IMG/VR virus record: IMGVR_UViG_3300017739_000127
Coordinates: 1 to 22,543 of that record
DNA length: 22,543 nucleotides
Strand: one strand, 5' to 3'
Origin: a virus
Shown: piece by piece, positions 5,472 through 21,631 of the stretch
Position numbering within the stretch: the stretch's first letter is position 1
Layout of the letters: each line of letters starts with the position of its first letter
The notes under the pieces: model-generated
Seen by the model: the letters and a program-made list of their open reading frames with translations, nothing else
What the model was told of the DNA's origin: nothing
The model's database searches: none
Made by a program: the position numbers and the translations under genes

Positions 5472-5891
5472 TTATTTTAATTTAACATTACAGGCGTCGT
5501 CAAAATTTTGCTGTACCTCCTCGAATAAATTGTCTACTTGCTCTGCTTGTAAATAATCTACTTTGTTTTTTATGTAGTCGATTTTTGCGTCCAAGTTTGT
5601 AAGATCCTTGTCGCCTATTACGTCGATTATCAAGTGTTCGAGATCCTTGTTGTTTAGCAAATAAATGTCCCAGTTTTTAAGAGCATACAAAATTGTGCTG
5701 TGGTGCATATCTTTACCTTCGTGCTTATACACGTCACGTATTTTGCTACAACCTAATTTATAATACCTACTTAATATAAAACTATAAGCTGCCCTACCTT
5801 CTACGTGTTTACGTTCCCTAGTGTTTGAAAATATATCTACTTCTAGGATCCTATTGATCTTATTCGCTATATCTTTATATTTTGTTTTCAT
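5472..5891 (-). CDS. DnaA domain IV-like DNA-binding protein
   Basis: The 139-aa protein resembles the C-terminal DNA-binding domain of the initiator DnaA. Residues 25-44 (RERKHVEGRAAYSFILSRYY) match the arginine-containing helix, GCSKIRDVYKHEGKDMHHST gives the following helix and the DnaA-signature-like H-H-S-T, and ILYALKNW completes it. There is no AAA+ domain, so it cannot act like full DnaA; origin recognition or transcription control are possible roles. The remaining 65 residues are acidic and helical. It starts in a 4-base overlap with the exonuclease gene upstream. Confidence 0.72.
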   Translation of the reverse strand: MKTKYKDIANKINRILEVDIFSNTRERKHVEGRAAYSFILSRYYKLGCSKIRDVYKHEGKDMHHSTILYALKNWDIYLLNNKDLEHLIIDVIGDKDLTNLDAKIDYIKNKVDYLQAEQVDNLFEEVQQNFDDACNVKLK

Positions 5892-7182: not shown

Positions 7183-7322
7183 AGCATATCTGCTTCAAAA
7201 CAGGTACTTGAACAATAGCTACCTGAACGTTCAACAGGTTCGTCACACATAGGACATAAATGTTCTGCGTCCCAACCACGATATTTGTGTTCCATATATA
7301 CTAACCAATCATCGTAATTCAT
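7179..7322 (-). CDS. 47-aa zinc-ribbon-like protein
   Basis: A small reading frame joined by 4-base overlaps at both ends: its ATG sits in the stop of the upstream membrane peptide and its TGA in the ATG of the nuclease-like gene. Seen: LCPMC (CxxC), a short turn, then SYCSSTC (CxxxC) and FEADML at the end, a layout expected of a small zinc finger. The N-terminus (NYDDWLVYMEHK) is helical and polar. The double coupling and the paired cysteines make it a convincing gene although its function is unknown. Confidence 0.78.
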   Translation of the reverse strand: MNYDDWLVYMEHKYRGWDAEHLCPMCDEPVERSGSYCSSTCFEADML

Positions 7323-7441
7323 ACCCTGCGTTTTTTATATTGGACATACGCTATACTAATACATACAGCTACTATAAATAAGTGATACAGGTTTATATGT
7401 GATTCGCCACACATACCTAGCAAGTGTTCTAATTGTTTCAT
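7319..7441 (-). CDS. 40-aa single-pass membrane peptide
   Basis: The ATG overlaps the preceding stop (ATGA) and the TGA overlaps the next ATG. The peptide starts MKQLEHLLGMCGESHINL, continues with a hydrophobic segment LFIVAVCISIAYV and ends in a basic YKKRRV tail, so an N-out/C-in single-pass topology is expected from the positive-inside rule. Similar small membrane proteins are frequent in the early regions of Bacteroidota phages. Function unknown. Confidence 0.65.
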   Translation of the reverse strand: MKQLEHLLGMCGESHINLYHLFIVAVCISIAYVQYKKRRV

Positions 7442-8787: not shown

Positions 8788-9261
8788 TCATTTGAGTAAT
8801 TTTTTAACTTTTTTAATTGTTCTTTTTATACTGCAATAATCTATACCAGTTTTATTGCTGATTTGTAGCATACTTATGCCGTCTTTGTAAACTAATTCGA
8901 AGATCTTACGATCATACCAATATAGCGTACTAAGTTTTTCCTCTATACTTTCCTGTATTTCTTTAGCAGAATTGCTGTTGCATTGGATCTGAAAATCTTG
9001 AACTTCCTTGTCTACGATTTTGTTTTGATCCTTTACGTGATTTAGCCAAATGGTGCGAAGTGCTTTAAAGACAAAATAATAATTGATCTCTGTCTTATTA
9101 TACAAGATACTCCTGTCGTGTTTCTCACAATAGTAATGGATCTTGATATACATATCTTGAACCAAATCTTCACTTGTCATTCTATCGCAACCGAAACTTT
9201 GGACTATCTTAATCCAGTCATTGTGTTTCTTAGCTAATTTTTCTAACAAGTTTACCACCAT
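8788..9261 (-). CDS. Sigma-70-like (ECF-type) transcription regulator
   Basis: The 157-aa protein has the two-domain layout of a small sigma factor: a region-2-like helix pair with SEDLVQDMYIKIHYY (about residues 30-44), an F-x-x-K-A-L-R-T-I-W stretch, a polar linker, and a C-terminal HTH resembling region 4 (KIFELVYKDGISMLQIS, then IDYCSIKRTIKKVKKLL). Phage sigma-like proteins redirect host RNA polymerase to late promoters. It is embedded in the replication genes and overlaps the small membrane protein upstream by 10 bases, so it is likely an early or middle product controlling later transcription (inference). It could instead be a sigma-derived regulator without core binding. Confidence 0.78.
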   Translation of the reverse strand: MVVNLLEKLAKKHNDWIKIVQSFGCDRMTSEDLVQDMYIKIHYYCEKHDRSILYNKTEINYYFVFKALRTIWLNHVKDQNKIVDKEVQDFQIQCNSNSAKEIQESIEEKLSTLYWYDRKIFELVYKDGISMLQISNKTGIDYCSIKRTIKKVKKLLK

Positions 9262-9399: not shown

Positions 9400-10314
9400 T
9401 TAAAATGGTACGTTATTTTTATCTGTCAAATCATTAGTTAGTAACTTGGATCCTTGACACGTAAAACCTACATTATTAATTATTGACTTTAATCGTATCG
9501 GATCATCTATTGGAGTTGGACGTCCCCCTGTTTCCACTTCTTTAACTTTACGCACGTGGATATGCGTATAAAACCATTCCGTAGGGTGTTGCACGTATCT
9601 ATGCACAACTATAAAATCATCTGCCCTATTTACAAATTTTCCACCACCTTCAACATCACTCGCTAATGGTGGTATAGGGTGTCCTACATATTCGTGTCCT
9701 ACTGGGTGCTTGAATCTTAGTGCCTGAGTATTGGCGTGAGTGTTTAGCCATATCGTAACGTTTTCTTTTTTGCAGAACATACGCATTTCCGTAGTAGCTA
9801 AGTAATCATATTCGTGTCCTCCTAAGTTGTTCATCATTTCGTTGTCCTTTGTCAAGCTGTTATATGGATCAATCAATAGTCCTTGATAGTTAAACGTCTT
9901 TTTAAATGATCTAGCAAACTCCAAAAGAGTACGATAGGTATGAAGGGTATCATTACTAACCACCTTAAAATGTTCAACAACAAAATCAAAATGTTTTTTA
10001 AATGTTTCATCATCTATTTTATTAATTGGCTTTTCTTCTAGAAATTCTACTAGCTTCCTAATTATACTATGAGGTTCGTTTTCGCTAGAAAAAATTAACC
10101 ATTTTAGTTTATGCTTTTTCGTATAACACAGCATCAGATACAAAATAACTGTTGTCTTACCAACGTTAGCGTGTCCTAACACTACATTAAAATTACTAGG
10201 TTTGAATCTTATGTATTGATCAAAACATTCATTACCTAATTTAATACCTTCCCTTATCGTTCCAGATCTTACATCTTTGAGATACTGAAACGTTTCCTCA
10301 GTGTTTATTATCAT
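9400..10314 (-). CDS. Replicative DnaB/RecA-type helicase
   Basis: SF4-type helicase candidate that would unwind DNA at the phage fork. Seen in 304 aa: Walker A GHANVGKTT at residues 47-55, LKWLIFSSENE (the strand and acidic residue after the first helix), Walker B-like GLLIDPYNSL, VTIWLNTHAN (the sensor strand), and R-E/K-rich motifs near HIHVRKVKEVETGG. It lacks a primase or DnaB N-terminal domain and is shorter than DnaB, so it is a core-only ATPase of the gp4/twinkle-like kind; a RecA/Sak4-like recombinase is a less likely alternative. It ends in NNVPF, resembling the SSB tip. A hairpin terminator separates it from the gene upstream. Confidence 0.82.
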   Translation of the reverse strand: MIINTEETFQYLKDVRSGTIREGIKLGNECFDQYIRFKPSNFNVVLGHANVGKTTVILYLMLCYTKKHKLKWLIFSSENEPHSIIRKLVEFLEEKPINKIDDETFKKHFDFVVEHFKVVSNDTLHTYRTLLEFARSFKKTFNYQGLLIDPYNSLTKDNEMMNNLGGHEYDYLATTEMRMFCKKENVTIWLNTHANTQALRFKHPVGHEYVGHPIPPLASDVEGGGKFVNRADDFIVVHRYVQHPTEWFYTHIHVRKVKEVETGGRPTPIDDPIRLKSIINNVGFTCQGSKLLTNDLTDKNNVPF

Positions 10315-10341
10315 TAAATTGTTTTTTGTTTATAAAGTTAT

Positions 10342-10366
10342 AAAAAAAAGGGGTAGCTAACCCCTT
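10342..10366 (-). terminator. Bidirectional-looking hairpin terminator
   Basis: A 7-bp stem (AAGGGGT pairing with ACCCCTT) with a 5-nt loop, followed on the minus strand by a run of U; a U-run also flanks the other side, so it could act in both directions. It comes right after the stop of the 92-aa gene and before the helicase. Confidence 0.8.
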
Positions 10367-10374
10367 GATTTTTT

Positions 10375-10999: not shown

Positions 11000-11133
11000 A
11001 ACTCTTGATATTTTTTGTTAAACATTGCTTCTTTCGCCACTTCTATTTGTGCTTCCAGAAATTCTACTCGTTGTTCTAGACGTTTTACTTCGTGTTGCAA
11101 GGCGTCTACCCTTGCCCTTAAATAATCACTCAT
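10996..11133 (-). CDS. 45-aa coiled-coil peptide
   Basis: The peptide is one long charged helix with heptad leucines and valines (LRARVDALQHEVKRLEQRVE, then FLEAQIEVAKEAM), a convincing parallel coiled coil. The TGA overlaps the ATG of the OB-like gene (ATGA). It is the first gene after the NinG terminator, so its upstream 48 bp should hold a promoter, though no consensus match is clear. It may serve as an oligomerisation partner; function unknown. Confidence 0.75.
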   Translation of the reverse strand: MSDYLRARVDALQHEVKRLEQRVEFLEAQIEVAKEAMFNKKYQEL

Positions 11134-11181
11134 AACTTTAATTTTATTGTTCAGGGTGTAAGTTAGTAAAAAAATGTTAAT

Positions 11182-11212
11182 AAAAAAAAAGAGAGCAGTA
11201 AAAACTGCCCTC
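11182..11212 (-). terminator. Rho-independent terminator after ninG-like gene
   Basis: On the minus strand a 9-bp stem (GAGGGCAGT with ACTGCTCTC, one G-U pair), a 4-nt loop and nine U residues. It lies 50 bases past the stop of the NinG-like gene and separates it from the coiled-coil/OB-like transcript. Confidence 0.88.
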
Positions 11213-11261
11213 CCTTATAAACAAAAAAAACAAGTTGCGAATGATCACACAACGAGGTACG

Positions 11262-11657
11262 CTAAATTAATGCTTTTTTTTGATCTGCAACAATACTTTT
11301 ATACTTTTCTATTAATTCTATGAGATCCTGATCCATAAACTTAGCTGTTTGTTTGCTAAGCTGATACAATTCTTCTGATTTTGATGCACCTAGATGTAAA
11401 CTGAATTTGTATTGTTCTCCGTATCTAAAGACGTTACAGCTTTTACACTGCACTGCACAATTATCTTCGTGCCACCTTGTAGCATAATGTTTCCTGCTAA
11501 CAAAGTGTCCACAATCCATAGCTTTCCAGTGATCTTTTTTACCACACGTTACACAGCTTACAATACCATTCTTGTCGGCTGTTCGTGTGCGTATAAATTC
11601 GCTGAACACCTGATCCAGTTTTTTAATAAGTCCTTTGCGTGTTAATTTTCTTGCCAA
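11262..11657 (-). CDS. NinG/Rap-like recombination nuclease
   Basis: The 131-aa protein matches the lambda NinG (Rap) family, which acts on branched DNA in phage recombination. Seen: basic N-terminal helices with FSEFIRTRTADKNG, a zinc-binding pair CVTC (C35, C38), MDCGHFVSRKH (H51), and CAVQCKSCN (C70, C73), an HNH-like arrangement. Lambda NinG is longer, so this is a compact core. It ends at a strong terminator and is 1 base from the 79-aa gene upstream. Confidence 0.85.
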   Translation of the reverse strand: MARKLTRKGLIKKLDQVFSEFIRTRTADKNGIVSCVTCGKKDHWKAMDCGHFVSRKHYATRWHEDNCAVQCKSCNVFRYGEQYKFSLHLGASKSEELYQLSKQTAKFMDQDLIELIEKYKSIVADQKKALI

Positions 11658-11658
11658 A

Positions 11659-11898
11659 CTATCCCTCTAAGCTATCACGTAGCAAAAGAGATCCTAAGCG
11701 TTGATCGTAGTTCTTGATCAATCTAAATATATATCTTGAAGTTAATTCTGCGTTACTCCATTCTGTCTTGCTACTTTCTGTTCCTAAATTACAATACTGC
11801 TCAGCGTTGAGTTCAAGCAAAGTATCTATCTTACGTTTTTCTGTGTACGTTTTGTAAGAAACTATTTTATCTGCTTTTTCCCTGTACATTTCGTTCAT
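11659..11898 (-). CDS. Hypothetical 79-aa early protein
   Basis: First gene after the 173-bp regulatory spacer. The protein is hydrophilic and helical, with KIDTLLELNAEQYCNLGTES in the middle and a basic-acidic C-terminus ending LLLRDSLEG. No known domain is apparent, but I associate the YCNLGT motif with small phage proteins next to recombination genes. The spacing to the NinG-like gene is 1 base. Confidence 0.72.
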   Translation of the reverse strand: MNEMYREKADKIVSYKTYTEKRKIDTLLELNAEQYCNLGTESSKTEWSNAELTSRYIFRLIKNYDQRLGSLLLRDSLEG

Positions 11899-11922
11899 AT
11901 TGATGTGATTATATACGAATTT

Positions 11923-11946
11923 AAAAAAAATAGCTTAGAACAGCTA
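11923..11946 (-). terminator. Weak hairpin with U-tract
   Basis: Minus strand TAGCT-GTTCTA-AGCTA gives a 5-bp stem and 6-nt loop followed by eight U. It lies about 125 bases past the holin gene and could end the lysis transcript, though the stem is short and some read-through is expected. Confidence 0.45.
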
Positions 11947-11967
11947 AAAATGGTGTTATTTTATGCT

Positions 11968-12030
11968 ATACGTATAATTATATAGTACAATAGTCATACG
12001 TACTATAATACTACGTACTATTATACGTAT
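11968..12030 (-). repeat. ACGT-centred inverted and direct repeats
   Basis: Inside the otherwise gene-free 11899-12071 spacer. ATACGTATAAT at 11968-11978 is the exact inverted repeat of 12020-12030, and between them ACGTACTAT occurs twice (11998-12006 and 12013-12021), each copy ending in GTACTAT, the inverse of ATAGTAC at 11982-11988. Four ACGT-centred elements lie within 63 bp. This looks like a cluster of operator, promoter or origin sites; no clear host promoter consensus is visible. The rest of the spacer is an A/T-run and the weak terminator. Confidence 0.7.
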
Positions 12031-12071
12031 TTTAGAATATAAATTTTTTTTTCAAATTTCCTAATATCACG

Positions 12072-12467
12072 TTATTTATTTTTATCTACATATGTCTTAA
12101 TCATCTTTTCGCCTGTACGTCCAATAACGTAACCACCTATACCTAACTGGAGGAGGTTCCAAAATTCGTTTTCTAATTCAGGTATTCGCAAGTCAAATAG
12201 AGGAGCAATAAACTTTACATATATTACTATAAAACCAAACGAGAGCATAAGGATCGGACGCCAAGATCTTTGCAACCAGTTACCTTTAGCTTCTGCTATA
12301 ATAATATCGGTTTGCATTTTTTGTAATTGCAGTTCATTTTCCTTTAGCACTTTAAAGATTTCGTTCTTTGCTTTGATACGTTCTTCATCGCTAGTAAATA
12401 AATTGTCGATTACTTTACCTACTTCCTTTACTACGTTACCACCTAGAAATTCTAAAATCTTTTTCAT
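12072..12467 (-). CDS. 3TM-type holin
   Basis: A probable holin that opens the inner membrane at lysis. In 131 aa: an N-terminal amphipathic helix (FLGGNVVKEVGKVIDNLF), a charged helical linker, the family-typical NWLQRSWRPILML start of a membrane segment (about 68-90), PLFDLRIPE, and a second hydrophobic segment WNLLQLGIGGYVIGRTGE, then a basic tail. This NW-x-x-R-x-W-R-P motif belongs to the phage 3TM holin family. It is the last gene of the lysis set and overlaps the 41-aa basic gene (ATGA). Confidence 0.8.
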   Translation of the reverse strand: MKKILEFLGGNVVKEVGKVIDNLFTSDEERIKAKNEIFKVLKENELQLQKMQTDIIIAEAKGNWLQRSWRPILMLSFGFIVIYVKFIAPLFDLRIPELENEFWNLLQLGIGGYVIGRTGEKMIKTYVDKNK

Positions 12468-12589
12468 CTGCCTTGTCCTCTATATTTTTTTTTAAACTTT
12501 ACCTGTCCTCGACTTGCGTTTTTGCTGTGTACATTTGGGCGTTTTTTACGTGACTTGGGTAAATAGCTTGATATTATTTTACGTGCCAT
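12464..12589 (-). CDS. 41-aa strongly basic peptide
   Basis: The ATG overlaps the amidase stop (TAATG) and the TGA overlaps the holin ATG (ATGA). It starts MARKIISSYLPKSRKKRPNV and ends KKKYRGQGR: about a third of the residues are Lys or Arg. I associate RPxVHSK and the YRGQGR terminus with a small conserved protein in flavobacterial phages. It may bind nucleic acid or sit in the virion; no function can be read from the sequence. Confidence 0.78.
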   Translation of the reverse strand: MARKIISSYLPKSRKKRPNVHSKNASRGQVKFKKKYRGQGR

Positions 12590-13026
12590 TAGAACTGATT
12601 ACTAATCCATTCGTATTCTTCCTTTGCATTAAAGCACGGACACGCTTTTGTGCTGAAGTCATTATGTCCATACACAACAGCTTGACTATACAAACCTTTT
12701 AACCTACATAGCAAATCTTCTAACGCTTCCTTTTGTGCAGGTGTTCTTGTATCTTTTGCTATCCAGTCGCCGTCTGCACCTCTTTCTGCTTCTACTCCTC
12801 CTACGTATGCTATACCTATACTGCTGTAATTTTCTCCCTTAGTGTGAGCACCAGTTTGTTCTACTGGACGTCCCTCCTCAACACAACCTTCGAGATCAAT
12901 AACAAAATGATAACCTATATCACGCCAACCACGTTTTAGATGCCACTTCCTAATCGTATCTACACTAATCGGTTTGCCTTCCTGTGTAGCTGTGCAGTGT
13001 ACTATGATCTTATCTATTTTTCGCAT
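12589..13026 (-). CDS. N-acetylmuramoyl-L-alanine amidase endolysin
   Basis: A T7-lysozyme-like Amidase_2 enzyme that cleaves the amide between N-acetylmuramic acid and L-alanine. Seen in 145 aa: IIVHCTAT with zinc ligand H10, RDIGYHFVI (Y39), GAHTKGENYSSIGIAYVGG, and GHNDFSTKACPCF with ligand H121, catalytic-type K127 and ligand C129. The length matches T7 lysozyme (about 150 aa), with no cell-wall-binding domain and no signal peptide, so release depends on a holin. It overlaps the 127-aa membrane protein gene by 13 bases and the basic peptide gene by TAATG. Confidence 0.95.
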   Translation of the reverse strand: MRKIDKIIVHCTATQEGKPISVDTIRKWHLKRGWRDIGYHFVIDLEGCVEEGRPVEQTGAHTKGENYSSIGIAYVGGVEAERGADGDWIAKDTRTPAQKEALEDLLCRLKGLYSQAVVYGHNDFSTKACPCFNAKEEYEWISNQF

Positions 13027-19163: not shown

Positions 19164-19203
19164 ATCTATATAACAATAAATATATTACAACTGGTGCATA
19201 CAT

Positions 19204-19233
19204 AAAAAAAAAGAGGTGCATATAGCACCCCTT
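19204..19233 (-). terminator. Strong Rho-independent terminator
   Basis: Minus strand AAGGGGUGC-UAUAU-GCACCUCUU makes a 9-bp stem with one G-U pair and a 5-nt loop, followed by a U-run. It comes 23 bases after the tail-tube-like gene and separates it from the portal group. Confidence 0.88.
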
Positions 19234-19256
19234 CTACTCTCCTTCATTAATCTATC

Positions 19257-21441: not shown

Positions 21442-21477
21442 TACTCTTATAACATTTAAAATTAGTATACTGGGCGT

Positions 21478-21630
21478 TTAGGAATTTCTATTAATGTTTC
21501 CTATCCCTTGATTTATTATATATCCCTTACAACATTCTATGCTGTACGTATCTTCGTCCTCACAAAGACAAGCACGATTACCTCGAACTGGACTTGTCTT
21601 ACTTGGTGTTTTCCAATCTTCGTTCCTCAT
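21478..21630 (-). CDS. 50-aa cysteine-rich protein
   Basis: The ATG lies one base after the protease stop. The peptide begins MRNEDWKTPSKTSPVRGNRA, then CLCEDEDTYSIECCKGYIIN and a short Q-G-I-G-N-I tail. The motif C-x-C ... YSIECC-x-G is familiar to me from small proteins between protease and scaffold/capsid genes of flavobacterial phages. The two cysteine pairs suggest metal binding or disulfides. Function unknown. Confidence 0.78.
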   Translation of the reverse strand: MRNEDWKTPSKTSPVRGNRACLCEDEDTYSIECCKGYIINQGIGNINRNS

Positions 21631-21631
21631 A

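Follow-up and report, generated by a model that had tools for sequence, protein, structure and literature searches.

The spacer between the lysis genes and the first early gene of an uncultured marine virus carries a row of short inverted and direct repeats, and comparable rows stand at the same place in its relatives. We regard it as an array, conserved and specific to the lineage, of sites that probably bind protein; it heads the replication operon and belongs to known kinds, the iteron and operator arrays, and as to its use we favour origin iterons over a transcription operator. In the open-access literature searched, neither an origin nor an early regulatory site of these uncultured marine phages was found.

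Gene order and likely host

The record, IMGVR_UViG_3300017739_000127, is a 22.5-kb virus contig, the whole of which (22543 nucleotides) was analysed and is called the window here. All of its sizeable genes lie on the minus strand, in the order portal, structural genes, amidase, holin, spacer, small ORF, NinG, DnaB-like helicase, sigma-like protein, exonuclease VIII-like protein, DnaA-like protein and terminase. The spacer is 173 bp long, with a GC content of 0.22, and the borders given for it in the first-pass annotation are right. Upstream lies the holin gene (12072–12467, minus strand), of the 3-TM type and the last of the lysis group (phrog_3427, 2e-33; GTA_holin_3TM, 5.1e-12); downstream lies a small ORF, the first past the array (11659–11898, minus strand; phrog_31361, 8e-4), the true start of which may be at 11889, ATGTACAGGG, a start conserved in the alignment of relatives. 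It is followed by a NinG/Rap-like nuclease (11262–11657, minus strand; phrog_5034, 1.1e-26; NinG, 6.6e-13) and by the DnaB-like helicase (9400–10314, minus strand; phrog_18375, 1.1e-38), whose presence goes with that of the array among relatives. The description of the spacer as the longest gene-free stretch also stands, because each of the three longer ORF gaps (11000–11261, 7183–7437 and 21442–21631) has a small ORF that is conserved among relatives.

The window portal matches that of Nonlabens phage P12024S, its nearest cultured kin by portal, at 36% and, since marine flavobacteria are the hosts of the cultured phages closest to it in portal and helicase, the host is probably a flavobacterium. 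The helicase query found no relative among genome contigs, and hence no host genome; a nucleotide search of phage records with the window gave no match.

Repeats in the spacer

The repeats that had been pointed out in the spacer are all present: an exact 11-bp inverted repeat with arms at 11968–11978 and 12020–12030, a direct repeat at 15-bp spacing (TACGTACTAT at 11997 and 12012) and four copies of ACGT (11970, 11998, 12013 and 12025). They lie in a strand-neutral array at 11966–12036, with TACGTA centres at 11969, 11997, 12012 and 12024. When compared with 1000 dinucleotide shuffles of the spacer, the 11-bp repeat, which is its longest inverted repeat, was equalled in 290, and we therefore rejected this single repeat as evidence. 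Taken together, the short inverted and direct repeats do exceed chance, with 50 inverted 6-mer pairs against a shuffle mean of 18.3 (2/1000), 14 inverted 8-mer pairs against 3.7 (19/1000), five direct 8-mer pairs against 0.8 (18/1000) and four ACGT against 1.6 (30/1000).

No 160-bp segment of the record other than the spacer reaches a repeat score of 12; the spacer's own score of 12 is weak compared with the 23–69 of seven relatives, and a simple motif classifier labelled the window array ‘none’. An exact 28-base query from the array had no matches among viral contigs. Two candidate marks of the spacer were rejected: the window has 15 copies of the unit TACTATTGTA (at most one mismatch), only two of which lie in the spacer and 13 outside it, and an EM-trained motif from five relatives degenerated into a generic AT motif that did not single out the window spacer.

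The weak terminator proposed in the annotation was not recovered: a scan of 11400–12600 for a G+C-rich hairpin followed by a T-run gave no intrinsic terminator, and only a very weak A/T hairpin can be read at 12034–12066 (minus strand), the putative place of a post-holin terminator in relatives that finds no support in the window. No good promoter was found in the spacer; a weak candidate at 11916–11951 (minus strand) has five of the six positions of TAnnTTTG, the flavobacterial -7 box consensus according to excerpts of PMC9723704, and an upstream T-run, and the equivalent block is partly conserved in aligned relatives.

The same junction in related phages

Searches with NinG (80 loci), the helicase (5), the holin (80) and the small ORF (2) gave overlapping sets of related IMG/VR phages, in which spacers were compared directly where the holin stands before NinG. 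The repeat test covered the 46 holin–NinG spacers below 350 bp, longer spacers (L141) being left out, and direct 8-mer repeats reached p ≤ 0.01 in 19 of them, with inverted repeats also in excess in many of these. The check on conservation that had been suggested thus came out positive: the array recurs at the holin-to-NinG junction in many related phages, in which it is denser than that of the window and has lineage-specific repeat letters. The kin of the window have a TACTATTGTA-like unit with TACGTA (L088 and L093) or related units (L085 and L087); the type B unit is CTAGTATATAG (L125, L140, L145, L149, L151, L154 and L165), the type C unit is TATAATATCATA (L071, L159 and L163), and further units are found in L018/L006/L037 and in the L033 group. 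Among 60 offsets tested in 22 spacers, some offset of 13–18 bp reached z ≥ 3.1 in all 22 and was the top offset in 11, and offsets of 15–16 bp ranked with the strongest in most of the nearest kin of the window. The array types cluster on the holin tree, few branches of which are well supported.

Some relatives have pure A/T spacers, such as that of L152, with a GC content of 0.0 over 63 bp; the k-mer filter skips two-letter words, so that pure A/T arrays (L090, L095/G011 and L152) count as array-less. Relatives without an array include G008 (= L112), L138 and phage P12024S. Repeats of another kind lie in coding sequence (L140:1200–2120, L125:1360–1760, L161:7320–7560 and L166:6950–7170), as rows of units like GCTACTAACGCTACTAATATA, probably of a tail fibre, and as collagen-like repeats.

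The place of the spacer within whole genomes was compared in 11 records, the window and 10 near-complete relatives. Repeats are densest in this spacer in nine of the 11, only narrowly so in G007, the exceptions being G008 and G011, of which the latter has pure A/T repeats invisible to the filter. The AT-richest 120 bp likewise falls in this spacer in 10 of the 11 records (as a joint lowest in the window), and in G008 it is an ordinary T-rich stretch after the terminase gene. Non-coding DNA is AT-rich anyway. In P12024S, the spacer is neither the densest repeat spot nor the AT-richest place; its AT-richest 120 bp lies after the primase gene (L168:16022–16312), in a gap with TATTATTACATT repeats, and is a possible counterpart origin.

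Signs of selection on the DNA

In 10 pairs of type-B phages, the array was more alike than the holin gene in eight (0.92–0.99 versus 0.78–0.91), tied in one and lower in one; repeats make the placement of gaps easier, but the L125/L165 pair needs only one gap and L140/L165 none. The L145 array is the L140 array with one 17-bp unit added, and two substitutions besides. Because the array is better kept than the adjoining holin gene in this sub-group and has one unit of 17 bp more in one relative, the spacer is a DNA element that acts in cis, probably as a row of protein-binding sites. The window spacer, for its part, shares twenty 9-mers with the spacers of five relatives, against 7.0 in shuffles (2/1000), and its 8–10-mers in common with these spacers exceed those of its own shuffles throughout (2 to 4/1000). 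We hold with good confidence that the array is functional at the DNA level as a set of putative protein-binding sites, whatever its use.

The array as a possible replication origin

Our leading reading, a tentative one that falls somewhat short of an even chance, is that the array comprises the iteron-like sites of the phage replication origin. A row of binding sites of ~13–18 bp, partly dyad-symmetric, would then lie in the part of the genome that is richest in AT and easiest to melt, after the last lysis gene and before the first early or replication gene; a phage DNA-binding protein, for which the DnaA domain IV protein encoded at 5472–5891 is the leading candidate, would load along the array, the AT-rich duplex would open and the phage DnaB-like helicase would then be recruited. 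The observations themselves comprise the array, its position, its conservation as DNA among relatives, the AT extreme and the protein families; we infer the binding of protein to the array, the identity of the binder and the start of replication there.

As expected of iterons, multiple tandem or inverted repeats of one unit, weak in the window and strong in relatives, adjoin an AT-rich region suited to melting. According to excerpts of PMC7466680 and PMC5043065, the iterons of lambda-type origins are inverted repeats that adjoin an A+T-rich tract, and their number differs between phages. Our array resembles the lambdoid origin (ori-lambda, with its O protein) as a row of near-identical inverted-repeat sites by an A+T-rich tract in the replication region; it differs in its pitch of 13–18 bp and in being intergenic, before the operon, whereas the ori-lambda iterons lie inside the initiator gene, and family searches of the window phage gave no O-type initiator. 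The iterons of plasmids, as described in excerpts of PMC5043065, are tandem direct repeats with an AT-rich region and are helically phased. Tandem direct repeats and an AT-rich region are shared with the present array, but its pitch is ~1.5 helical turns, out of helical phase, no DnaA boxes were seen and the family searches gave no Rep protein. The likeness to bacterial oriC is that the phage encodes a DnaA domain IV protein; however, TTATNCACA boxes are not in excess (31 matches at up to one mismatch, against 37.7 expected, and none in the array), so that a DnaA box cluster of the oriC type was rejected, and the phage protein has no room for an AAA+ part. Cumulative GC skew, which the annotation had proposed as a check, runs in one direction through the window and the pieces of ten relatives, and a skew-marked origin was rejected on the lack of a switch, which is weak evidence because all sizeable genes lie on one strand. 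The original suggestion of a regulator-binding region or origin was accordingly a fair one as regards the recurrence at the same junction, the conserved DNA and the AT extreme in most genomes, and failed as regards DnaA boxes and a skew switch.

The array goes with the replication genes incompletely, being present in 20 of the 31 loci that have a helicase of the 9400 type and in three of the 39 that lack it. These 70 loci have distinct upstream DNA and a NinG match that begins no earlier than base 500 and is followed by 3600 bases; they still include near-copies (e.g. L033, L050, L054, L055 and L064), and pure A/T arrays are invisible to the repeat test used. The three helicase-less loci with an array (L068, L070 and L082) have low scores of 13–14, and the repeats of L082, at least, appear to be coding. 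The association is inseparable from kinship, as supported branches provide only six independent pairs, which are too few, and kinship explains much of it; the L033 group, with array and helicase, differs in the expected direction from its sister L004/L010/L014, with neither. Other relatives speak against an origin: G008 (L112) shares the helicase, DnaA-like and sigma-like genes yet has no array, L138 retains the helicase and the small ORF without an array, and P12024S has a weak homologue of the DnaA domain IV protein and no array. These array-less relatives count against a simple origin story, as does the fact that array phages have lost the host-type -7 box (see below); origin and transcription-control uses can share one spacer.

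If the array is the origin, it would offer a target of 70–180 bp by which origins could be located throughout a large phage group, its position and pitch and not its letters being the means of recognition; it would also test whether a lone DnaA domain IV can serve as a phage initiator. The array is of interest mainly for this testability and for the lone DnaA domain IV as its possible reader.

Candidate binding proteins

The DnaA-like protein of the first-pass annotation proved to be a stand-alone DnaA domain IV-like DNA-binding protein of 139 aa (5472–5891, minus strand), both by profile and by predicted fold. A five-row profile of the protein matches Aquifex DnaA domain IV at 4.3e-5 and, in a Foldseek search with its predicted model (mean pLDDT 75.6), all ten of the best matches are DnaA, the first being DnaA domain IV bound to its box (E 0.025; TM 0.53 by query); Pfam gave Bac_DnaA_C at 0.019, below the cut-off. 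The gene is present in all 11 records and is a core gene of this phage group. A tblastn search of phage records with the protein at E 0.01 found none, whereas the profile finds the P12024S homologue. Because a homologue is present in that array-less phage, the protein may bind the array or may act elsewhere, for example at the host origin.

The sigma-like protein (8788–9261, minus strand) keeps its label by a match to phrog_1740 (1.5e-7), which is weak, and Sigma70_r4_2 (0.008) is below the cut-off. Two other candidates were rejected: the family of the ParB-like protein (1289–1966), as a universal binder, is found in only seven of the 11 records and is missing from the array-bearing G003, G004, G007 and G010, and that of the small ORF product is missing from the array-bearing G009 and present in the array-less L138. 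A bolder proposal, which we think improbable though worth stating, is that this flavobacterial phage group starts replication from fast-changing iterons opened by an AAA+-less DnaA domain IV, with a constant pitch and place but a site sequence and a reader protein that change in step from one lineage to the next.

Alternative explanations

The strongest competitor, to which we give about one chance in three, takes the array for operator or activator sites of the early promoter, through which a phage or host regulator switches the NinG–helicase operon, with no origin function. The -7 box TAnnTTTG occurs in 16 of 22 array-less spacers (shuffle mean 3.1; 0/200 as high) and in only four of 18 array spacers (shuffle mean 1.7; 15/200 as high), as if the array had replaced a plain promoter, although both lists were sorted partly by eye and contain related rows. 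They were picked from 47 spacers and that of the window, which is among the 18; L090, L095 and L152 (A/T only), L100, L159 and L167 (near-copies), L148 and L141 were left out, and L098 was counted as an array despite its non-significant result in the repeat test. P12024S has the box at the same place, after the holin, in the same endolysin–holin–early gene order, but without a repeat array. Moreover, the early operon lies behind the late genes, which share its strand, and therefore probably needs its own promoter, and several arrays are dyad-symmetric. Against such a switch, no gene family tracks the array across the 11 near-complete records, and an operator has no requirement for the AT-richest place in the genome. 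An operator of lysogeny in particular is unlikely, because no integrase was found; with PF00589 in none of 21 records, some of them fragments, a lysogeny operator or attachment site was rejected.

That the array is a neutral AT-rich spacer, growing and shrinking by slippage and without function, is in our view quite unlikely. The weakness of the window array, the chance length of its longest single repeat and the pure A/T spacers of relatives such as L152 would all suit it, but such a spacer would hardly outdo the adjoining coding gene in conservation in eight of 10 type-B pairs, stand at the same location in many lineages or have words in common with relatives.

Least probable of all is an RNA-level element, in which hairpins would act as a terminator or attenuator between the lysis and early genes: RNA structure was rejected as the basis of the array because it is not consistent among ten array RNAs, two folding unusually well (L018, z -4.75; L154, z -4.17) and the other eight having z between -0.63 and -1.96, and an Rfam search of the window gave no matches. 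A post-holin hairpin of type-B phages does show compensatory changes among eight distinct sequences (paired cells, 62.5%; covariation 0.345, with 0.136 for shuffles, 0/500), but it sits outside the array, and its exact register is unsure, as more cells pair (72.9%) when the partner is shifted by +2 than in the helix as drawn.

Other features of the record

Minus-strand hairpins followed by T-runs, likely operon terminators, lie at 10315–10374 (AGGGGTTAGCTACCCCT) and 19164–19256 (AGGGGTGC..GCACCTCT). The gap at 11000–11261 contains an unlisted small coiled-coil-like ORF (MSDYLRARVDALQHEVKRLEQ...), conserved in L088, L093, L085 and L087, and that at 7183–7437 an unlisted small Cys-rich ORF (CPMCDEP...CSSTC) kept in relatives. 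Between amidase and holin (12468–12588) lies an 80-bp block that L088 and L171 match at 85–88% identity and that can be read as a conserved small ORF, 39 aa or more in length. Between NinG and the spacer, the slot holds one of two dissimilar small ORF families, the MKFD...FERSEIRH type (L018:5844–6008, L035, L056, L112 and L122) or that of the window (11659–11898), which have apparently been swapped among relatives.
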